Part shown: piece by piece, positions 2,762 to 17,442 of the stretch | Layout of the letters: each line of letters begins with the position of its first letter | Numbering within the stretch: position 1 is the first letter of the stretch | From: Methylocystis sp. B8 | Lineage (GTDB): Bacteria > Pseudomonadota > Alphaproteobacteria > Rhizobiales > Beijerinckiaceae | DNA: 64,000 nucleotides | NCBI RefSeq assembly: GCF_005771425.1 | Contig: NZ_VBTZ01000006.1 | Span: forward strand, 132,580-196,579 | Direction: 5' to 3' | Program-made: the position numbers and the translations under genes | The notes under the pieces: generated by a model | Database searches by the model: none | What the model was told of the DNA's origin: nothing | The model's input: the letters and a program-made list of their open reading frames with translations, nothing else

Positions 2762-4069
2762 GTGTCCTCGCACGTGAAGGTCAGGCTCACCAAACAATTC
2801 TGCGACACATGGCGACCCTCAAAAGACGATGACGTCGCATGGGACGAAGCGACCGAATGCTTCGGCCTGCGTGCTATCAGGAAAGGCGAAGGCTTCCGCA
2901 AGACGTTTGTCGTTCAAAAGAAGGGCGCCGGCAAGAAGACGATCGGCCCCTATGGGCTCTTGACGCTCGACCAGGGCCGCAAGGCGGCCCGCGAGTTATT
3001 GGCGCGCCTCGCGCTCGGCGAAAACCCGATCGCGGACGAGCGGAAGAGACGCGACGCGCTCACCGTCGCCGAACTCTGCGAGCAATATCTCGACGCCGCC
3101 CGCGCTGGGCTCGTCGTGACCAACAAGAAGCGCGTCAAAGCCGAGTCGACGGTCTCAATCGACGAGGGCAGGGTCGCCCGCCATATCATTCCTCTACTCG
3201 GAAAGCTCCCGGCGAATTCACTTGCCGGCCGGGCAGACCTGTTGCAGCGGTTCTATGACGACGTCGCCGCCGGGAAGACGGCTGGCAAGATCAAGACGAA
3301 GACCCGCGGGATGGCCCGCGTGCAGGGCGGGGCGCCGGCCGCCAAACGGGCCGTTGGCTTGTTCGGCGGTATCTGGACGTGGGCGAGCAAGCGCGGGCTT
3401 GTAGAGGGCGCTAACCCCACCCGCGGGGTCGATATGGCCGCCGACGCCACGCGCGAACGAATCCTCGCGGCGCATGAACTGGCGAACCTCGGGCAGGCGA
3501 TGCGAGGGGCCGCCGAGCGCGAGACGATGGCGGCGGCCGCCGTTCGAATACTTGCTCTAACGGGTATGCGCCGCGAGGAAGCCGTCAGCCTTCGCTGGCG
3601 CGAGATAGACGCGGCGACTCAATGCTTGAGGCTTGAGGCGACGAAGACCGGGCGCTCCATGCGGCCGATCGGAAGGGCGGCGCTCGACTATCTGCAAACG
3701 CTGCCGCGCCTTCACGATGAATTCGTGTTCCCGAACCGCGACGGAACTGGCGCCGCCGATCTCAAGAAACAGATCGCGGCCATCTTTGACGACGCCAAGC
3801 TGACAGACGCGCGGTCGCAAACGCTGCGCCGGACCTTCGCAAGCATCGCCGCCGATGAAGGCTATGGCGACGCGACCATTGCCGAACTCTTGGGCCATAG
3901 CCGCCGGGGCGTGACGCAGCGGAGCTACATCCGCCGCCCCGATGCTGCGCTTGTCGCCGCTGCCGATCGAGTCGCCGCGCGAATAGCGGCTGCGATGGAC
4001 GGGCAGGGGGCGGACGTTGTTAGCCTCCCGACGAGGGCGAAGGCCCATCGAAATGAGCAAGAGCTATAG
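2762..4069 (+). CDS. int: Tyrosine recombinase / phage-type integrase
   Basis: The 435-aa protein has an N-terminal arm-binding domain of the DUF4102 type (about residues 1-90, GLRAIRKGEGFRKTFVV), a core-binding helical domain (about 95-215) and a C-terminal catalytic domain. The first catalytic arginine is in LTGMRREEAVSLRW (about 267-280), the second in LRRTF, then LLGHSRRGV and the nucleophile in QRSYIRR (Tyr about 388). The usual histidine of HxLRRT is replaced (SQTLRRT), a common variation. The start is GTG at 2762, since no ATG lies upstream in frame. The gene sits beside the attL fragment and points into the element, the end away from the intact tRNA. It should excise and integrate the element at tRNA-Gly. 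Confidence 0.95.
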   Translation: MSSHVKVRLTKQFCDTWRPSKDDDVAWDEATECFGLRAIRKGEGFRKTFVVQKKGAGKKTIGPYGLLTLDQGRKAARELLARLALGENPIADERKRRDALTVAELCEQYLDAARAGLVVTNKKRVKAESTVSIDEGRVARHIIPLLGKLPANSLAGRADLLQRFYDDVAAGKTAGKIKTKTRGMARVQGGAPAAKRAVGLFGGIWTWASKRGLVEGANPTRGVDMAADATRERILAAHELANLGQAMRGAAERETMAAAAVRILALTGMRREEAVSLRWREIDAATQCLRLEATKTGRSMRPIGRAALDYLQTLPRLHDEFVFPNRDGTGAADLKKQIAAIFDDAKLTDARSQTLRRTFASIAADEGYGDATIAELLGHSRRGVTQRSYIRRPDAALVAAADRVAARIAAAMDGQGADVVSLPTRAKAHRNEQEL

Positions 4070-5216: not shown

Positions 5217-5668
5217 CGCTCACCCCAGCCATCGCGAACAAACTTGCGGCGATTCTTCCGCGGCTTGCGAGCAACCACGATGGCGAAGTCGTCGCGACGG
5301 CAAGAGCGATCGATCGCACACTCAAGAGCGTCGGCGCAGACTGGCACGATCTCACCGAAGCTTTCACGCGCGGCGCGGCGGTCATCATCATTCGCGACAG
5401 GAAGGCGGCGAAGCCGGAACCGAAGCCGTCGTCACGCAAGCCGCCACCGCGATCGGCGCCGTCGTGGGACTCGCTTTCCCTCGCCGGTCGCATCGCATGG
5501 CTCACGATCTGCGCGGAGAAGGCGTGCCTTTCGCCATGGGAGCAATCATTCGCCGAGAGCATCTTGGTGTCGCTCCGCGACGATCCATACAGGCCGCTCT
5601 CGCCGAAACAGAAGGGCATCTGTGACCGGATAATCCGAAGCGCATTCAACTTCGGGTTTCGGCCATGA
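5213..5668 (+). CDS. Hypothetical protein, conserved type in alphaproteobacterial islands
   Basis: 151 aa. The N-terminal 50 residues (LPRLASNHDGEVVATARAID followed by LKSVGADWHDL) match a helical segment I know from many uncharacterised phage and island proteins of this class. A linker rich in Lys/Pro/Ser (about 65-85) leads to a second segment with Trp and Cys. It overlaps both neighbours by 4 bp (ATGA at 5213 and 5665), which supports tight co-translation with the replication-like gene downstream. Function unknown. Confidence 0.75.
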   Translation: MTLTPAIANKLAAILPRLASNHDGEVVATARAIDRTLKSVGADWHDLTEAFTRGAAVIIIRDRKAAKPEPKPSSRKPPPRSAPSWDSLSLAGRIAWLTICAEKACLSPWEQSFAESILVSLRDDPYRPLSPKQKGICDRIIRSAFNFGFRP

Positions 5669-6906
5669 CGGAATCGAGCCGCAGGGCCAAACGCACAATC
5701 AGTCGCCGTCAGCGGGCTTCGCTCACCCTCTCGCAGCTATACCGCGTTGCCGCGGCGCAGAGCGCCGCTGGTGAGCTTTTGGACCCAAGGCCATGGCTCA
5801 AGGTCCTGGCCAACGTTCTCTCATCGGCACCCGCCGGACGCATCGGAAAGCGCAGCGGGCGAGACGCTCCAGACTACTGGGAGCTTTCCTATAACAGCTT
5901 GCTTGTCGCCGCTCAGCGCTGCGGCATTGAGGCTCCGGCGGAAGAGATAGAGGCGCAAGTCGCCGATACGTCCGAATGGCGCGCGCGTGAATCGCGGCGC
6001 ATCGGCCGCTCTCACTTCATGGCCATGAGCGCCGAAAAGATCGGCGAACTAATCGGCATGACCGAAGAGATTTGGCGCGAGGCCAAAGCATGGAATCTCG
6101 CGCCCTACGGCAGTTCGAAGGAGTCGCTGCAACAGGCAAGGAAGGAGCGCGACAAGATGCGAAAGCAGGACAAGCGCCGCGCGGAAGGCGCGCGACCGCA
6201 AGGCGAGAGTTTGTCCAAGCGCAGGCCATGGGAAGCTGAAGGCGTCTCTCGCCGGACATGGTATCGCCGCATCGCGGCGGCCCAGAATGGAGCGCCGGAC
6301 GATCCCAATGATGGCGGTGGCACAACTTCGTCCGCGACAAATAAGTTGGCACAACTTCGTCCGGCACAACTTCGTCCGCGACAAATAAGTGAGCGTGGCA
6401 CAACTTCGTCCGGGACAAATATTCCCTACGGGCGTTGCCCTCGGGAATTCCCCAACGACCATGTCCCGGGTTGCGGCGAGGCCGAGGCGGCGCAAGCGCG
6501 CCGACCGGCCGGACCCGGCTGCAATGACCGCGGAACGGCCAACGGGATTGCAAACGACGCGGCGCCCGGCGAAGGCGACAGCGCGGCGGCGCTTGAGCGC
6601 CGACTGACAGGCGACTGTGACCAATCATTTTCTGACGCGAAGGATGAAACGCTTCGCAGGGATGGCGGCGAGAGCCGGCATGATGGCCAATCGTCCGGCG
6701 CTGCATCCGGTTATGCGGCAGGCGACTTTGAGGACGCCATAGCGCGGTATCAGCGCATCAAAGGCGAGCCCGCGCCGGCCTATCAGATGCAGCCCGGCGG
6801 CCTTGCCGTGCGCGCCTTGGCGCTGGTGCGTCGTCCCGACCAGATGACCATGCAGCCGATACGTCGTGCGCGCCTTGAGCGACCGCTTGAGGAGATGGCC
6901 GTATGA
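5665..6906 (+). CDS. Replication-module-like DNA-binding protein with internal DNA repeats
   Basis: 413 aa, starting in an ATGA overlap. Residues 1-150 are helical and basic (RRQRASLTLSQLYRVAAAQS; IGELIGMTEEIWREAKAWN), residues 150-185 form a charged coiled helix, and at about 190-210 lies RPWEAEGVSRRTWYRR, a helix-turn-helix-like signature that recurs in uncharacterised alphaproteobacterial phage and island proteins. The segment after it is encoded by iteron-like DNA repeats read in two different frames, and the C-terminal 150 residues are low-complexity. The placement resembles lambda O, where origin iterons lie inside the initiator gene. An initiator role is inference; a transcription factor is possible. 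Confidence 0.65.
   Translation: MTESSRRAKRTISRRQRASLTLSQLYRVAAAQSAAGELLDPRPWLKVLANVLSSAPAGRIGKRSGRDAPDYWELSYNSLLVAAQRCGIEAPAEEIEAQVADTSEWRARESRRIGRSHFMAMSAEKIGELIGMTEEIWREAKAWNLAPYGSSKESLQQARKERDKMRKQDKRRAEGARPQGESLSKRRPWEAEGVSRRTWYRRIAAAQNGAPDDPNDGGGTTSSATNKLAQLRPAQLRPRQISERGTTSSGTNIPYGRCPREFPNDHVPGCGEAEAAQARRPAGPGCNDRGTANGIANDAAPGEGDSAAALERRLTGDCDQSFSDAKDETLRRDGGESRHDGQSSGAASGYAAGDFEDAIARYQRIKGEPAPAYQMQPGGLAVRALALVRRPDQMTMQPIRRARLERPLEEMAV
6319..6420 (+). repeat. Four iteron-like direct repeats inside the replication-like gene
   Basis: The core GGCACAACTTCGTCC occurs at 6319, 6348, 6363 and 6397. Copies 1 and 3 extend identically through GCGACAAATAAGT, copy 4 differs by one base within the shared extension (GGGACAAAT), and copy 2 is the core only. 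Spacings are 29, 15 and 34 bp. Copies 1 and 4 encode GTTSS(A/G)TN, whereas copies 2 and 3 encode AQLRP, so the repeat is conserved as DNA, not as peptide. This suggests binding sites for an initiator or regulator. Confidence 0.8.
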
Positions 6907-6937: not shown

Positions 6938-7219
6938 ATGGACGGCCTTGCTGACGCGGCGCAGACCGTCGACGCTCTTTATGAGGCTAGCCCCATAAGG
7001 CGCCGCTCGACGAAATCGGAAGTCGGGGCCCGGCGGGACGCGCTTCTCGCCATCGTCTCCGCCGGCAAGCCGATGACGGTCCGCCTGCGCGCGATCGTCG
7101 AAAGCGCAATCACAATGCACTTGCCGCACGATCAATTCGACGTCCTGAAGGCGGCCGAGGCGAGCGAGCGTGAGCACTTCATGAAAATTGCGGAAATGCT
7201 TGGCGGGAGTCCGTCATGA
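6938..7219 (+). CDS. Hypothetical protein, possibly an internally deleted topoisomerase-VI-A-like relative
   Basis: 93 aa from the ATG at 6938. The N-terminal half (RRRSTKSEVGARRDALLAIV then GKPMTVR) resembles the opening of island proteins that normally continue MTVRQVFYQA. Here the sequence switches straight to LRAIVESAITMHLPHDQFDV, so it may be a deletion product or an independent small protein. Its stop overlaps the next ATG (ATGA at 7216). An alternative short ATG at 6903 overlapping the previous stop is in another frame and ends after 31 codons. Confidence 0.6.
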   Translation: MDGLADAAQTVDALYEASPIRRRSTKSEVGARRDALLAIVSAGKPMTVRLRAIVESAITMHLPHDQFDVLKAAEASEREHFMKIAEMLGGSPS

Positions 7220-7557
7220 CGCCAGCCGCCGCCATCCGCGACGAGGCCGCAAGACTTCGATTGCAGGCCGATCGACTCGACGCGCTCGCGGACGCTCTCG
7301 ACGGCGCGCCGATCGCGCCGGCGGAGCCGACTTGGATCCCTACAGGGCGAGCGCAACAGATCCTGCGCGTTAACAGCGAGTCGACCATTTACAGAATGAT
7401 CGAAAGGCACCCGGAAATCGCCCGTCGCGCAGCCAACGGGCGCAACTGGCAGATCGACAAAGCGAAGCTCCTCGCGCTCCTCGATCGCGGCCGCGGCGAA
7501 AACGGCGAACGCAGCGGCGAAAGCGGCGAATGCCTTCTGCTCGAATCACCCCGATAA
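7216..7557 (+). CDS. Small coiled-coil plus helix-turn-helix protein
   Basis: 113 aa. An N-terminal coiled helix (EAARLRLQADRLDALADAL) is followed by an excisionase/MerR-like HTH (TGRAQQILRVNSESTIYRMI; ARRAANGRNWQIDKAKLLAL, about residues 40-90). The tail GENGERSGESGE is encoded by an imperfect GGCGAA repeat. This is the second HTH regulator in the left half. It is translationally coupled to the preceding gene and lies 25 bp before the coiled-coil gene. DNA binding is likely; the target is unknown. Confidence 0.75.
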   Translation: MTPAAAIRDEAARLRLQADRLDALADALDGAPIAPAEPTWIPTGRAQQILRVNSESTIYRMIERHPEIARRAANGRNWQIDKAKLLALLDRGRGENGERSGESGECLLLESPR

Positions 7558-7582: not shown

Positions 7583-8590
7583 ATGGCTTTAAGTTTTAAC
7601 GCGAACGGTCCGGTCGCCGTCGCCAGATCGCTTTCGCCCGAAGAGTGGAAAGCGCAGGCGAGCTTCGCGCTCGACAAGGACGCCGCCGACAAATTGCCCG
7701 CTGGCGCCCGTGCGAAGTTTCTGGCGCTCCGCAACGAATTGGCCGAAGCGCGCGCGGTCCTCACCGTTCCGCGCGAGAAGCTCGCCGAGGCGCGCGAGAA
7801 GCGCGACAAGGTCAGGCTCCGTCTCGAAAGCCTACGCCGTAACGGAATGCATGAGGGGCACCCGGCTTTCGACGCAGAGAAAGAAGTTTTCGACCGCCTT
7901 AGCGCGGAAGTGAAGCTGGCGAGCGATGAATACTCACGCCGCTCCGCCGCGATCGGTCCGATTGGCGAGCAGATCAGGCGACTCGAAGCCTATACCGCCT
8001 CGCTTCCTCTTTCCGTCGGCATGGCTCCTGCGGTCGCCGTGAAGCTCCCCAAGGGCGCGTCCATCGTCGCCGCGATCGTACAAGCGCGGGAGAAAATCCA
8101 AGAGCACCGCGACGCCATTCAAGCCGCCATCGACGCGCCATGCACGAGCGCCGATGTGAAAAAGCGGATGCGCGCGCAGATCGAGGAGCTCGCAGAATCT
8201 GGTCGGCCGAGCGTTCAGGGCGCGGTCGATTTTGGCGAGCGCATCAAGTTTCCGACGACGCCCGCTGAGGTTTTCGTCGAAAGCAAGCGCGGACACGCCG
8301 ACGTTTCCGATGCGATCGGCCTCGTCGCTTGGTTGTTCAAGGATCAGCTTATCGCCGCGCTCGACGGCGCGCTCGCCGACGTCGCCGACGATGCGAGCGC
8401 ATTGACCGCAGACGAGCGCCGCAGGCGCGTTGCGGACGCTAAGAAGCAATTGCTCGAAGCCGAAAGGATCGAGGAGGCGCTGATCGAACAGGCTCGCCAA
8501 AGCGGTCTGACCATTGGCCGCCGGCATGACGCCGACCCGCGCGCGATCTTGCAGCTTTCCGACTCCGCGCCGGAGGTGCGTGACGATTGA
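7583..8590 (+). CDS. Large hypothetical coiled-coil protein
   Basis: 335 aa, preceded by GGAGACGAAT. Residues 45-110 form a strong charged coiled coil (LRNELAEARAVLTVPREKLA; EAREKRDKVRLRLESL), a second helix (IVQAREKIQEHRDAIQAAID) follows at about 165-190, and a third near the C-terminus. There is a single cysteine, no transmembrane segment and no signal peptide. I recognise no family. A phage-like structural or scaffolding role is conceivable given the two capsid-protease-tail-like proteins downstream, but that is inference from neighbours. Confidence 0.75.
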   Translation: MALSFNANGPVAVARSLSPEEWKAQASFALDKDAADKLPAGARAKFLALRNELAEARAVLTVPREKLAEAREKRDKVRLRLESLRRNGMHEGHPAFDAEKEVFDRLSAEVKLASDEYSRRSAAIGPIGEQIRRLEAYTASLPLSVGMAPAVAVKLPKGASIVAAIVQAREKIQEHRDAIQAAIDAPCTSADVKKRMRAQIEELAESGRPSVQGAVDFGERIKFPTTPAEVFVESKRGHADVSDAIGLVAWLFKDQLIAALDGALADVADDASALTADERRRRVADAKKQLLEAERIEEALIEQARQSGLTIGRRHDADPRAILQLSDSAPEVRDD

Positions 8591-8610
8591 GTTTCGTCCG
8601 GGCTGACGAA

Positions 8611-8656
8611 GCCGGCTGCCGCTTGGTTTAATTCCTTTGGCCATGCGGCGGCCGGC
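8611..8656 (+). other. 12-bp stem hairpin in the intergenic leader
   Basis: GCCGGCTGCCGC (8611-8622) pairs with GCGGCGGCCGGC (8645-8656) through 12 bp with one U.G pair in the plus-strand RNA (A.C on the other strand); the loop is 22 nt. No U-run follows. The next gene has its own Shine-Dalgarno (AAGGAGGGCC) at about 8678-8687, so the hairpin is more likely a processing or stabilising structure than a terminator. Confidence 0.55.
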
Positions 8657-8689
8657 ACACAGAAACAATCAGCCCAAGGAGGGCCATCA

Positions 8690-9001
8690 ATGCAACTTTA
8701 CGACGAGAAAGACCTCGAAAAAGCTTTTGAGGACGGCCGCCGCGAAGCCGCCTCCTCTTCCGGGGATATCGACGCCGCCTATGCCCGCGGAGTCGCTGCC
8801 GAGCGCGAGCGGATCAAAGGCGTGCTGACGAGCTCAGTCGCCGAGAGCGATCCCCGCACCGCCATCATGCTTGTGGTCAGCGGCGTCGACGCCACGCCCG
8901 AGAACATCGCCGCCGTCAATGAAGCGCGGCGCATCGCGGCCGATGCAAGCTGGGCAGAGATCAACGCCAAGCGGACGGCATCGCCCGGTCGCTCGTTTTA
9001 A
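8690..9001 (+). CDS. Small protein with degenerate capsid-protease-tail-like motif
   Basis: 103 aa with a very good Shine-Dalgarno (AAGGAGGGCCATCA). The segment ARGVAAERERIKGVLTSSV followed by DPRTAIMLVVSGVDATPENI has the shape of the short C-terminal motif of many phage prohead proteases and scaffolds (ER.R...ILTS.EA.GR..LA..LAFETDM). The protease domain itself is absent. A sharper copy of the motif occurs in the next gene, 15 bp downstream, so the two may be diverged duplicates. Confidence 0.75.
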   Translation: MQLYDEKDLEKAFEDGRREAASSSGDIDAAYARGVAAERERIKGVLTSSVAESDPRTAIMLVVSGVDATPENIAAVNEARRIAADASWAEINAKRTASPGRSF

Positions 9002-9015
9002 GAGGAGAAACGACA

Positions 9016-9345
9016 ATGTCGACCTACGACAACGATCCGCACTTCGTCGCCTCTCTCGGCGCCGCACTCACCAAAGAGCGAGCCGACGGCCACAACAGCG
9101 CTTATCTCGAAGACTTCGCCGCCGCCTTCACGAAGTCCTACGCCGAGGGGCGCATCGCATACCGACTGCGCTGCAAAGCGATCATTGAGTCGCCGGAAGC
9201 GAAAGGCAGAGAGGTGCAGGCGAAGCACCTCGCCCTCGAAACCGACATGACTGCCGAGCAGGCGATCGCGCTCCTGCGCACCATGGCCTCCTCGTCGTCC
9301 ATCGGCGCGCGTGCTGCCGAGACGATCATCTCTCGACCGCTTTGA
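9016..9345 (+). CDS. Small protein with capsid-protease/scaffold C-terminal-like motif
   Basis: 109 aa behind AGAGGAGAAACGACA. The C-terminal part reads RLRCKAIIESPEAKGREVQA then KHLALETDMTAEQAIALL (about residues 50-90), closely matching the pattern at the C-terminus of phage S49/ClpP-like prohead proteases in alphaproteobacterial prophages. No catalytic domain is present in the 109 aa. It is the last gene of the left operon; a run of hairpins and an intrinsic terminator follow. It could act on a helper phage capsid or be a protein-interaction module; this is inference. Confidence 0.8.
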   Translation: MSTYDNDPHFVASLGAALTKERADGHNSAYLEDFAAAFTKSYAEGRIAYRLRCKAIIESPEAKGREVQAKHLALETDMTAEQAIALLRTMASSSSIGARAAETIISRPL

Positions 9346-9351
9346 ACGGGA

Positions 9352-9555
9352 TTGCCGCGCTTCGCTCCTGTTGCGCGGCGATGACGGGCGGGCGGCGCTT
9401 GCAGACCGCCGTCCGCCCCAAGCCAACAAGGATTGCGTCCGCACTCGCCGCAATGGTGTGGACGCAACCGGGGCGAGCAGGACACCCGATCGTCATCCTG
9501 CTCGCCCTACACCAACGAAGGCGCAAGGCATTGGAATGCAATGCTTTTATTTTTA
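9352..9555 (+). ncRNA. Candidate structured RNA: four long hairpins plus intrinsic terminator
   Basis: Five consecutive stem-loops follow the stop at 9345. H1 is TTGCCGCGC/GCGCGGCGA (9352-9360, 9373-9381). H2 is GGGCGGGCGGC/GCCGTCCGCCC (9386-9396, 9408-9418). H3 is TTGCGTCCGCAC/GTGTGGACGCAA (9433-9444, 9456-9467). H4 is GGGCGAGCAGGA/TCCTGCTCGCCC (9471-9482, 9496-9507). H5 is a terminator (9525-9547) with TTTTATTTTT. Loops of H1-H4 are 12, 11, 11 and 13 nt. Every non-Watson-Crick pair inside a stem is G.U when read as plus-strand RNA and A.C on the other strand, so structure and strand agree. It may be an independent small RNA or the 3' UTR of the left operon. No known RNA family recognised. 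Confidence 0.6.
9525..9555 (+). terminator. Intrinsic terminator ending the left operon / RNA candidate
   Basis: AAGGCATTG (9525-9533) pairs with CAATGCTTT (9539-9547) with one G.U; the loop is GAATG and TTTTATTTTT follows directly. The U-run lies only on the plus-strand side. Confidence 0.8.
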
Positions 9556-9699
9556 AGGTTCCTTTCGAAGCATTCGCTTTGGGGCACGGCGCGGAGGGCC
9601 GATTTTCGCGCGTGAAAAAAAAGTGAATTTTTCCACTTGGGTTGGGAATAGGGAAAGCCGATAAATGCCGCCTCGTAGCCCTTAGACAATCCACCCGGC

Positions 9700-9909
9700 A
9701 TGGTCGAGGTCGGCGACGTGCTCAACGACTTCGAGCTAATGCTTGCAGAAATTCGCCACGATCTGGAACGCAGCTTGGCGTCGTTCGCTATGAGCGGTGA
9801 CGAACACGACGCCGAGCTGCGCGCGATTGATCCCGCGGTAAAGAGAACCTGCGTCCATTTTGAAACCCGGCTTACAAAAGCATTGGAGCGTCACGACACG
9901 CCAGGATAA
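9700..9909 (+). CDS. Small hypothetical acidic helical protein
   Basis: 69 aa, helical and acidic (VEVGDVLNDFELMLAEIRHD). No family is recognised and there is no convincing Shine-Dalgarno before the ATG at 9700. Amino-acid composition looks protein-like and the frame is not the shadow of another gene. The AT-rich 9541-9660 upstream could provide a promoter after the operon terminator. Confidence 0.45.
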   Translation: MVEVGDVLNDFELMLAEIRHDLERSLASFAMSGDEHDAELRAIDPAVKRTCVHFETRLTKALERHDTPG

Positions 9910-10201
9910 TAACGGCCAGATGTCCGTCTAATGCTGTTTCTTGAAGAAATGCTCCGGCCGAGCGAATTTCAAAAGGCGTCAGACGATTAATCTCAAATAG
10001 GAGTTCCACCGGCCCGCGCCATCCTCATGCACGTGCGCGAGATCCATCGTGGGGCTGCGGAAGGCATGTCAGGGGAAAGGGCTGCGGGGCCGGTGTATCT
10101 TCTTCGTTGTGAAAGACGGCCAGCGATCGGCGCAAAACCTTTGACGCAGGCGTCTCCATCGGTTCAAATACTGCGAAAATTAACTATTCAAAGGGATTCG
10201 T
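9910..10201. other. Intergenic region upstream of the two-gene cargo cassette
   Basis: The 292 bp have no convincing frame. CACCGGCCC (10008-10016) and GGGGCCGGTG (about 10087-10096) are complementary but far apart. AT-rich DNA just before 10202 (AAATTAACTATTCAAAGGGATTC) holds the presumed start signals of the cassette. Confidence 0.4.
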
Positions 10202-10555
10202 ATGAGCGAATCTGTGGATGGTTTCTTCACTGCATTTTTGACCGGAAAGGCAGGAAGCGGCTTTTCGATGTTCGTCATCCGCAAGGGAAAGCTTGTGGGA
10301 TCCGATATGCTTGGTGCTGTTTACGACGGACGCATCGAACAAGACGGCGCGGACGCCTACAAGGTCATATTAGGCGTTCGACTGCCGCCCAATCTTCCTT
10401 TGATTCAAGGCGGGATGAGCGGTCCTTTTGGTGACACTTATGAGATGAGTTTCAATCTGCCGCACGAGTTTACTTCTCAGAGCTTCGTGCGGATTGACAC
10501 CAAGCACGGACCGCTCAATGCGAAGATCGTGAAAATTCGAGCCTTAGATGATTGA
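10202..10555 (+). CDS. GrlR-like small regulatory-fold protein (tentative)
   Basis: 117 aa. VDGFFTAFLTGKAGSGFSMF, VIRKGKLVGSDMLGAVYDGR and the beta-rich body resemble the GrlR-type fold, a small barrel first described as a negative regulator of type III secretion and widespread as orphan genes in Rhizobiales. The resemblance is of pattern only. Base composition is lower in GC than in flanking genes. Its last 8 bp overlap the next gene (ATG at 10548), so the two form a coupled cassette. No secretion system is nearby, so the regulatory target, if any, is unknown. Confidence 0.7.
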   Translation: MSESVDGFFTAFLTGKAGSGFSMFVIRKGKLVGSDMLGAVYDGRIEQDGADAYKVILGVRLPPNLPLIQGGMSGPFGDTYEMSFNLPHEFTSQSFVRIDTKHGPLNAKIVKIRALDD

Positions 10556-11720: not shown

Positions 11721-11950
11721 TCGCTCTAGAACGGAATTTAGCGTGTCATTCCCGAGTCTGATGCTCACCAGAATCTTACGAGATCGCGACGTGAGCGATC
11801 TACGACTGCCCAGCCTTTCCGAGAAGTCATCCACTCAGCAAATCATTGACCATCAATTTTTATTGGATAGCATCCTGTTTCCCTAAGACGCATCAGCATA
11901 TCTCAGTTCAACTTTCCAAGTGATCTCTTGTAATGATTCGGGAGGGAAAT
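11721..11950. other. AT-rich promoter region of the fibre-like gene
   Basis: This stretch is far lower in GC than its surroundings. It includes TTGACC at 11846-11851 as a possible -35 element and the near-palindrome CCATCAATTTTTATTGG. A strong Shine-Dalgarno (GGAGGGAAAT) at 11941-11950 decides the ATG at 11951. No gene was seen. Confidence 0.4.
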
Positions 11951-13105
11951 ATGGGCGATCTATCCTTGGAGGATTTCAACACTGCAACAGCGTCAACGGT
12001 ATTGGCGGGTCGCAGTGAAGCTGACGGCTCCTTCAATGGCGACGTCGTCTTAGCAGTCGAAGCTCAGACATTGGCTGATCACGCAGTTGCCGGCATCAGA
12101 ACAGTCGGACAGGGAGCGCCCGCACTGCTCGGGCTTGGACAGGGAGCACCCGCGCTGCTCGGGCTTTCTGATAATGCGGGAGTCGTCGGCGTCGGAACCG
12201 CTGGCGTTATTGGTCGGACGGATAACAAACGTTCAAGACTTCCCCCGACATTCGACAATGTAGGTGTGCTTGGCAGCTCATTCGGGGACCAATTAGCGGC
12301 AGGAATGATCGGAGAAAGCGACGTCGGATATGGGGTATATGCGGTAACGACAGCGGGCACTGGGGTCCGAGGCGACTCCGACAACGTTGGCGTTATGGGT
12401 TCTGGCCTCAACAGATTTGGGGTCGTAGGGCAATCGTTAGGATCGGGTGTCTTTGGACTTGGCGGCACAGTTGGAGTGAGAGGTCAGGCGGATAGGCCAG
12501 CTTGTAACGGCGTGTGGGGCAGCAGTGATAATGGAATTGGCGTTTTAGGCACCTCCCTCAAGAACGTTGGAGTTTACGGACAGTGCGGCGCACGGCCACG
12601 CACTCCGGGCGTTGCCGCGGGGTTTTTCGTGGGCCCTGTAATCGTAGTTGGCAGCTTCACCGCTTACGGGGCAAAGAGTGCCGCCGTGCCGTGCGACGAT
12701 GGCACGTATCGTCTGTTATACGCGGTAGAAAGTCCTGAAAGCTGGTTCGAGGACTTCGGCGATGCCCAGCTTGAATCTGGCAAGGCGAGGGTGGACTTGG
12801 ACCCTAAATTCGCTTCCTGCATCAAAGCCAAAGGGTATCATGTCTTTCTGACTGCCTGCAGTGACTGCAATGGTCTCTATGTCTCACGAAGAGATAAGAC
12901 AGGCTTTGAAGTGCGTGAGAGCCAACGCGGAAAAAGCAACGCGCGCTTTTCATTCCGGATCGTTGGCAAGCGGAAGGATATTTCCGCTGAAAGGTTCGCT
13001 TCGGCACCATCCTCAAACGATCTCCTGAAAGCAGTCGAACCGTCATTGAAGTGTGAACGCTTTAAGATGCCAGAACAACCGAAGCGCCGGAAAAAGCGGC
13101 TCTGA
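11951..13105 (+). CDS. Glycine-repeat fibre-like protein with conserved C-terminal domain
   Basis: 384 aa from the ATG at 11951, chosen over the ATG at 11933 because GGAGGGAAAT directly precedes it. Residues 60-210 are made of repeats of the form GVxGxSxxG (NVGVLGSSFGD; NVGVMGSGLNR; NGIGVLGTSLKNVGVYG), a beta-helix or fibre-like pattern found in tail fibres and surface proteins. The C-terminal domain (SPESWFEDFGDAQLESG; YHVFLTACSDCNGLYV) is a recurrent cap in such repeat proteins of bacteria and phages. The tail is basic (PKRRKKRL). There is no signal peptide. It could be a surface or tail-associated protein; function unproven. Confidence 0.8.
   Translation: MGDLSLEDFNTATASTVLAGRSEADGSFNGDVVLAVEAQTLADHAVAGIRTVGQGAPALLGLGQGAPALLGLSDNAGVVGVGTAGVIGRTDNKRSRLPPTFDNVGVLGSSFGDQLAAGMIGESDVGYGVYAVTTAGTGVRGDSDNVGVMGSGLNRFGVVGQSLGSGVFGLGGTVGVRGQADRPACNGVWGSSDNGIGVLGTSLKNVGVYGQCGARPRTPGVAAGFFVGPVIVVGSFTAYGAKSAAVPCDDGTYRLLYAVESPESWFEDFGDAQLESGKARVDLDPKFASCIKAKGYHVFLTACSDCNGLYVSRRDKTGFEVRESQRGKSNARFSFRIVGKRKDISAERFASAPSSNDLLKAVEPSLKCERFKMPEQPKRRKKRL
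12107..12166 (+). repeat. 30-bp tandem duplication inside the fibre-like gene
   Basis: Positions 12107-12136 and 12137-12166 are identical except for two bases, and both changes are synonymous Ala codons (GCG/GCA swapped). The unit is exactly ten codons (GQGAPALLGL), so the reading frame is kept. Confidence 0.9.
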
Positions 13106-13552: not shown

Positions 13553-14218
13553 ATGTGCGGCCGGTTTACGCAGCATCTGTCTTGGGAAGAGCTCCAGCGC
13601 CTCGCCGATCTGATCGGCCAGCCGCGCAATCTCGCGCCGCGCTATAACATCGCCCCCACCACGCAGATTGAGGTCATTCGGCCTACGGCAGCCGGCAACG
13701 AGCTCGTTCCGATGCGCTGGGGACTTGCGCCGTCTTGGTGGAAAAAGCCGCTGGGCGCGCTTCCTGCAACGTTCAACGCCCGCGCCGAGACGGTCGCCGA
13801 GAAGCCGATGTTCCGATCGGCGTTCAAGTCGCGACGCTGCGTCATCCCGGCGTCCGGGTTTTACGAATGGACCGGCAAGCCCGGCGCGAAGACGCCGCAT
13901 TATTTCTCATCGCCTGACGGCCGGCTGCTTGCGTTGGCCGCTCTATGGGAAAGCTGGCGTGATCCCGAGAGCGACGCGAAGGTCGACTCGGCGACCATCA
14001 TCGTCGGACCGGCGAACGAATGGATGCAGCGCTTTCACAATCGAATGCCGGTCATTCTCGACTGGCGCGACGTCAGCGCATGGATGACGGGCGACGATCC
14101 CGGCACGCTGTTGCGGCCTGCGCTGGAAGACGCCTTGCAAGAGTGGGTTGTTTCGTCGCGCGTCAACCGCTCGGGCGTCGCCGACGATGATCCTGCGCTT
14201 ATCCTGCCGGTCGCGTGA
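13553..14218 (+). CDS. SRAP-family protein (SOS response-associated peptidase, YedK/HMCES-like)
   Basis: 221 aa. The catalytic Cys2 follows the initiator Met (MCGRFTQH). Other family features are present: NIAPT, MRWGLAPSWW, FNARAETV, RRCVIPASGFYEW and the C-terminal FHNRMPVIL with its active-site histidine. SRAP proteins crosslink through Cys2 to abasic sites in single-stranded DNA and protect them; they are common on islands and prophages. The length is normal and all key residues are present, so it is probably functional. Its GTGA stop/start overlap couples it to the next small gene. Confidence 0.95.
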   Translation: MCGRFTQHLSWEELQRLADLIGQPRNLAPRYNIAPTTQIEVIRPTAAGNELVPMRWGLAPSWWKKPLGALPATFNARAETVAEKPMFRSAFKSRRCVIPASGFYEWTGKPGAKTPHYFSSPDGRLLALAALWESWRDPESDAKVDSATIIVGPANEWMQRFHNRMPVILDWRDVSAWMTGDDPGTLLRPALEDALQEWVVSSRVNRSGVADDDPALILPVA

Positions 14219-17367: not shown

Positions 17368-17414
17368 TGGAGCGGGCGAAGGGATTCGAACCCTCGACCC
17401 CAACCTTGGCAAGG
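17368..17414 (-). repeat. attR: element-side copy of the 47-bp attachment repeat
   Basis: Identical to 2563-2609 and forming the 3' part of the intact tRNA-Gly. Integration therefore kept the tRNA functional, with its 3' part now supplied by the element. Confidence 0.95.
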
Positions 17415-17442
17415 TTGTGCTCTACCCCTGAGCTACACCCGC
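17368..17442 (-). tRNA. tRNA-Gly (anticodon GCC)
   Basis: Complete 75-nt cloverleaf: acceptor GCGGGTG/CGCCCGC, D-arm GCTC/GAGC, anticodon stem CAACC/GGTTG with loop TTGCCAA, T-arm GAGGG-TTCGAAT-CCCTT and encoded CCA. It is the attachment gene of the integrative element to its left. Confidence 0.97.

Follow-up and report, generated by a model that had tools for sequence, protein, structure and literature searches.

What do the hairpins at the end of a likely operon in a phage-like island of Methylocystis sp. B8 do? The window analysed here, a stretch of 64,000 nucleotides from this bacterium, carries an array of four GC-rich hairpins at 9351–9508, directly 3′ of the last operon gene, as established by reading the sequence and listing the pairs. 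Five nucleotides separate the stop codon of that gene (9016–9345) from the array. The four hairpins, all read on the plus strand, are H1 (9351–9360/9373–9382; 10 bp, 12-nt loop, one T·G pair), H2 (9386–9397/9407–9418; 12 bp, 9-nt loop, one G·T), H3 (9433–9444/9456–9467; 12 bp, 11-nt loop, one G·T) and H4 (9471–9482/9496–9507, or 9470–9508 with its extra basal G·T pair; 12 perfect bp, 13-nt loop). The initial annotation had described these stems and a terminator downstream of them as one candidate structured RNA. Both the four hairpins and the terminator-like hairpin proved to be real, with stem and loop sizes right to within 1–2 nt, and our pair listing bears out that the non-Watson–Crick pairs of these stems are all G·U in the plus strand. 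As a proof of selection the latter observation falls short, as three or four pairs share a direction by chance in 1 of 4 or 1 of 8 cases.

Folded as RNA, the plus strand of the array reaches a minimum free energy of −113.1 kcal/mol (z = −6.67), and 0 of 200 shuffles were as low; folding is good on the opposite strand, too (z = −4.29). Four strong hairpins were obtained in 0 of 1000 dinucleotide shuffles of 9346–9520 (mean 0.17). The hairpin finder scores G·T and A·C pairs alike, and in the comparison of loci below we call a hairpin strong at a score of at least 26. In 344 kb of the same genome, made up of the window and fourteen stretches of 20 kb, the array is the sole cluster with four hairpins of score at least 24 per 250 nt; four other clusters hold three hairpins each. 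When the array was searched as DNA against 397 genomes of the order, it matched its own copy and otherwise gave short matches in 73 of the 396 other genomes (E = 1.6e-4 to 0.01), which we take to be chance-like. At gathering score, Rfam recognised only tRNA in the whole window, and a permissive scan of 8600–9900 gave seven matches, every one far under its cut-off. None of the five open reading frames that overlap the array region has a Pfam match. Comparison of sequences alone overlooks this putative RNA structure, which came to light through synteny and pairing statistics.

The array lies in an island of 14,852 bp between perfect 47-bp repeats. The attR-like end (17368–17414) is inside a tRNA-Gly gene (17368–17442, minus strand), and the attL-like end (2563–2609) is an identical repeat of the end of that tRNA gene. 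The island encodes, on the plus strand, a tyrosine integrase (2762–4069; PF00589, 1.8e-18; phrog_1, 2.9e-41), an HTH protein resembling excisionases or regulators (7216–7557; HTH_17, 5.9e-6, 26.9 bits at a cut-off of 27; phrog_66, 0.0035) and an uncharacterised protein of 335 aa known from relatives (g335; 7583–8590), which serves as the marker of this island family. The predicted structure of g335 is mainly helical and confident (AlphaFold2, mean pLDDT 91.2, pTM 0.76). We considered g335 as an RNA-binding protein, but the model found no fold match in PDB and BFVD at E ≤ 0.001. Two small plus-strand genes follow. The product of the first (8690–9001) is possibly scaffold-like, with weak resemblance to PHROGs head, scaffold and tail-assembly families (best E = 0.023). 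That of the second (9016–9345), the last gene before the array, is capsid-scaffold-like (phrog_6382, 6.6e-9; phrog_17040, 1.8e-7; phrog_53, 4.5e-6), its similarity to phage head protease families lying in their C-terminal scaffold part; this protein has three homologues besides itself and no match in the phage record collection. g335 and the small genes likely form one operon. A partial tail-protein match at 11933–13105 is the other structural-type match among the typed island proteins. The island also holds a gene for an SOS-response-associated peptidase (SRAP; 13553–14218; PF02586, E = 1e-64), and 5665–6906 has no match in Pfam or PHROGs. Neither terminase nor primase was found among the typed window proteins, a set that covers part of the small open reading frames, and no defence family matched any of eight island proteins. 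We regard the element as a phage-satellite-like island.

Loci with g335 homologues were collected from GTDB species genomes (21 loci) and IMG/VR (six loci). g335 matched in 16 of 397 genomes of the order, in 7 of 39 genomes of the genus and in 45 of 265 genomes of the genus of G171; the last of these includes G731, with a g335 identical to the one encoded at L066, a named Bradyrhizobium locus. The named hosts belong to the order Hyphomicrobiales. The two nearest g335 proteins, at 63 and 53 percent identity, lie outside the loci obtained from the genome and viral collections. Dropping duplicates (L080, L142, L143, L162, L163, L164 and L165) left 74 of 81 loci, and removing one further duplicate (L168, the same as L062) left 73 distinct loci with the hits unchanged. 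The counts leave out islands A and C of genome G238 (which have the hairpins of island D), L049 (on the contig of island F), L036 (the gene of L063), L060 (cut off 3′ of g335), fragments with no usable gene end (e.g. L089, L091, L094, L119 and L121) and those g335 matches in the genus of G171 for which no locus came back. For L071, just 83 nt were available 3′ of the operon. The end of g335 in island B was set by hand at a non-stop codon, with the array start (the scaffold stop) correct, and in internal-stop copies such as L145 the slot was placed too early; these were counted as they fell. Two g335 copies are broken, by a frame break in L136 (G529) and a stop in L135 (G534).

Of the 73 distinct loci, 51 have a strong hairpin within 300 nt past the operon end. 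The controls were 210 ends of other genes taken from these loci, of which 52 have one. Two or more are present in 19 of 73 loci against 7 of 210 controls. With the duplicate kept, 51 of 74 loci have at least one (Fisher p = 2.6e-11) and 19 have two or more (p = 1.6e-7); these p-values are guides only, because the loci are related by descent. By this finder, 22 of 73 loci have no strong hairpin within 300 nt; one of the loci lacking it is L056, with another open reading frame closely 3′ of g335. Some Bradyrhizobium loci have long arrays (e.g. seven hairpins in L055 at a looser score). The number of hairpins and the letters of stems and loops differ between loci, and the pairing is kept. Conservation of the five-hairpin unit as such is not supported. 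Since hairpins recur at one site with other letters, selection likely acts on the folded RNA, which would protect or end the operon message.

A genome of the same genus, G238, has five islands that encode a g335 homologue of 38–39 percent identity. Some stretches of these islands (L042–L046) are very similar to one another, and others have been swapped. A scaffold-like gene precedes the hairpins in four of them and another gene in the fifth (island E); directly 3′ of that gene stand two tandem hairpins (read in B, D and E; A and C have the same hairpins as D). Across the five islands, 2 of 22 pairs are changed on both sides, a count that 39 of 500 shuffles equal, and there is one compensatory series (G-C, G·U, A-U). 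Covariation within the genus is small and modest. In G443, also of this genus, the gene order is kept and the hairpins are different; its island proteins share 99–100 percent identity with those of an uncultured Methylocystaceae bacterium (CAIQCB010000041.1).

The strand bias of the G·U pairs could be counted over the relatives. Among 85 distinct array hairpins with a score of at least 26 within 450 nt past the operon, the coding strand has 39 G·T and 5 A·C pairs (p = 1.4e-7 against 1:1; 37:5 without the window). Control hairpins at this score gave 23:12 upstream and 22:20 farther downstream (pooled, 45:32). At cut-offs of 24, 28 and 30, the array ratios were 48:10, 36:4 and 27:3. Compared with the pooled controls, the excess is clear at 24 (p = 3.8e-5) and 26 (p = 4.5e-4), but it is not distinguishable from controls at 28 (25:10 in controls, p = 0.07) or 30 (14:3, p = 0.65), where control hairpins are few and likewise tilted to G·T. 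Subsets gave 27:3 (45 loci, score at least 28) and 32:5 (50 loci), the latter against 94:91 in controls (looser score). The excess at moderate cut-offs is as expected if selection acts on the sense RNA, although a C-to-T bias linked to transcription could contribute. The earlier proposal of selection on a plus-strand RNA is thus supported by the recurrence of hairpins and by the 39:5 ratio, and not by the strict cut-offs.

Taken together, we favour the reading that the hairpins form a putative array in the 3′-untranslated region, where they would shield the message of the operon or end it; to this reading we assign a probability of about 0.45. The array and the terminator-like hairpin would likely be the transcribed 3′ untranslated end of the operon of g335 and the scaffold-like genes, and 3′ exonucleases would be stopped by the folded RNA as by a roadblock. 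Protection of the upstream message may in turn give more scaffold-like protein than terminase, and at the window locus transcription may stop at the U-tract hairpin, before it reaches the packaging-site region. The unity of the operon, the transcription of the region, the protection of the upstream message and the working of the terminator are inferred. Free letters in stems and loops combined with kept pairing are easier to reconcile with a bulk structural role than with one that depends on base-pairing or on a specific sequence. Together with the start right 3′ of the scaffold-like gene and the place ahead of the relatives' packaging region, they lead us to prefer a 3′-end roadblock. No terminase small subunit was found 3′ of the array among the typed window proteins, so at this locus the proposed difference in dosage may have lost its importance. 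There is a precedent in another alphaproteobacterium: according to PMC7509114, 3′ hairpins hinder 3′–5′ RNases, and the puf operon mRNA of Rhodobacter can be kept from cleavage by multiple hairpins, which protect the operon message. We claim no homology with the puf hairpins. Should the slot serve only to stabilise the mRNA, it would be an elegant yet unremarkable example.

Two further ideas about the array were tried and set aside. One was a function as anti-Shine–Dalgarno ('cuckoo') loops: the array loops are U-richer and A-poorer than control loops, yet they share no common motif. A put-like antiterminator was dropped for want of a fixed hairpin pair.

A different role is raised by what occupies the same site in Bradyrhizobium. 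Nine Bradyrhizobium loci have a covarying, pseudoknotted RNA 3′ of g335, in which 11 of 19 pairs are changed on both sides (0 of 500 shuffles reach that) and 98.2 percent of cells are paired. The double-changed pairs include two of the pseudoknot, and slid controls gave at most 4 such pairs. Because the structure was written down from these sequences, it leans to them. Covariation, which the initial annotation had named as a check and which adds to the support for selection on a plus-strand RNA, is well borne out for the RNA at this site in Bradyrhizobium and modest for the same-genus islands.

This RNA resembles Proteo-phage-1 (RF03044), a structured RNA of phage-like DNA. RF03044 matched 5 of 7 sources at 34.5–40.9 bits and 2 of 14 more at 31.5 and 36 bits; in Bradyrhizobium all matches are under the gathering score of 42 bits. 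Of the nine loci in the alignment, the scan covered all but L167, and seven of these eight gave a match, the exception being L150. Eleven other related loci gave no Proteo-phage-1 match at gathering score. The family's core, of type AAGnCGGnnAGUG ... AACnCCGnCAGCC, is present with partly changed letters in the nine Bradyrhizobium loci, and with its complementary strands it has no match in the window at 9300–9700. A model built from the nine loci (R1) matched, below E = 0.01, L066 (the twin of a training sequence), L067, L069, L085, L143, L145, L146 and L148. A scan of 297 genomes of the order with RF03044 gave two weak matches, L172 and L173, which we judged irrelevant from their surroundings. 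Exact core patterns were found in 84 viral contigs (78 + 6; L174–L257). Up to 4 kb on either side of the core, none of these contigs encodes a g335 homologue, and their 19 typed neighbours are mixed (terminase large subunit, primase/helicase, recombination, nuclease, transposase, regulator and several unmatched). The g335 slot is therefore a place for Proteo-phage-1-like RNA apart from those contigs.

The array might be a small RNA of the island that acts in trans, or the precursor of one. Such an RNA would be a diverged counterpart of Proteo-phage-1 and would probably act on helper-phage or host functions. We consider this unlikely. The RNA in the Bradyrhizobium slot speaks for it, as do the mixed neighbours in the viral contigs, which are what a standalone RNA gene would have. 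The window shares with Proteo-phage-1 the context of phage or prophage DNA (integrase and attachment repeats). However, it matches neither RF03044 (E ≤ 10) nor R1 (E ≤ 5), and the loops and stems of the plain arrays are not conserved, unlike those of a base-pairing RNA. At best, the window array is a functional counterpart of Proteo-phage-1 and not a member of the family. The Bradyrhizobium RNA indicates that the slot can also house a more specifically structured RNA than the hairpin array of our preferred reading.

The terminator-like hairpin of the window stands at 9525–9533/9539–9547 (plus strand; 9 bp, one G·T), with a tail to 9554 that contains TTTTATTTTT at 9545–9554. Thus, a hairpin followed by a U tract, as in intrinsic terminators, is present at 9525–9554; its stem differs in having just three G-C pairs, and the four preceding hairpins have no U tract. 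The scanned 1.8 kb contain 3 terminator-like sites, with 2.4 expected from shuffles. No promoter-like site was found in 8500–10300. Only 2 of 74 loci, one of them the window, have a terminator-like hairpin, which gives no support for the terminator as a part of the hairpin unit. In the relatives, the 10 nt past the last strong hairpin have a T fraction of 0.27, with five or more T in 5 of 52. Termination is therefore not the shared role, and this weighs on a second alternative, by which the tandem GC-rich hairpins would be a composite terminator or insulator between the upstream operon and the packaging genes. It would account for the terminator-like hairpin of the window and for arrays that stand before a cos-like motif (islands A–F and L070) or before the terminase small subunit gene (L062 and L064). 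Given the lack of U tracts in most relatives' arrays, we rate it as rather improbable.

The packaging-site region itself bears on whether the repeats work as DNA. Downstream of the terminator-like hairpin, the window has AAGGTTCCTTT (9555–9565, plus strand), which is shared with relatives and stands there before a cos-like site or the terminase small subunit gene; AAGGTTCCTTT is all that we found in the window, where no cos-like core was detected. Farther 3′ of the hairpins, the G238 islands contain AAGGTTCCTTTT (C, D and E) or GATGGTTCCTTTT (A and B), as well as GGGCGGCGACCC, identical at 11 of 12 positions to the left end of phage lambda (GGGCGGCGACCT). The cos-like core, GGGCGGCGACCC or GGGCGGTGACCT, was seen in L045 (at 9222), L042, L043, L044, L046 and L070, with 11 of 12 bases as in the lambda left end; GGTTCCTTTT starts about 31–33 nt before it. 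Our initial cos pattern found nothing in the viral contigs and, among 39 genomes of the genus, G443 only; as written, the pattern misses G238.

Inverted repeats that work as DNA, namely as packaging, replication or recombination sites, with the G·T bias left by mutation or transcription, would suit the neighbourhood of the cos-like site, the good folding of the opposite strand and the lean of the controls to G·T at strict cut-offs. We nevertheless hold this to be very unlikely. Arrays exist in L054 and L055, where no open reading frame matched two TerS anchors; the G·T bias exceeds that of controls at moderate cut-offs; and the pseudoknot covariation in Bradyrhizobium is a property of RNA. Moreover, in island B an inserted gene parts the array from the cos-like site and, because of this intervening gene, we assign the array to the end of the operon. 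REP-like palindromes or functionless chance repeats, already disfavoured, are the least credible of all: the genome is GC-rich and the letters are not conserved, but the array is single-copy in its own genome (one match, and not the many copies of REP/BIME elements), and both the shuffle tests and the repeated presence of hairpins at a single site of related islands argue against them.

The island resembles PICI-type satellites in several features described in PMC6092414. Like them, it is about 15 kb long and has a tRNA attachment site with 47-bp repeats, an integrase and an HTH protein, and its relatives carry terS and a cos-like site. Neither a primase/initiator nor terS was found among the typed window proteins, and g335 and free scaffold-like genes are absent from the PICI description compared. 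Island D encodes a prim-pol/AAA protein and, past the hairpins and the cos-like site, a terminase small subunit (phrog_57) and a tape-measure protein (phrog_28); L070 also has a phrog_57 terminase small subunit. In the phage record collection, g335 of island D has no match and its terminase small subunit has one weak match. More broadly, these elements might constitute an undescribed satellite family of Hyphomicrobiales with a dedicated RNA slot, filled by interchangeable modules from plain arrays to Proteo-phage-1 pseudoknots and steering packaging or conflict with helper phages; for the present, we regard this as speculative and doubtful. If the slot is functional, the orphan family Proteo-phage-1 would be tied to one defined element family, with a testable site by the scaffold-like gene, and the slot would offer a starting point for studying control at the RNA level in satellites of alphaproteobacteria.

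Three minor observations concern the surroundings. In the satellite-like islands, a tail tape-measure gene lies next to terS at 9837–12461 in L045 and 3498–5549 in L070. A further strong hairpin of the window (8611–8656) stands directly 3′ of the g335 stop codon, before the first small gene, and has a 16-bp stem with one G·T and one mismatch. Finally, an inverted repeat with 16-base arms and a 21-nt loop is located 3′ of the array at 9769–9821.
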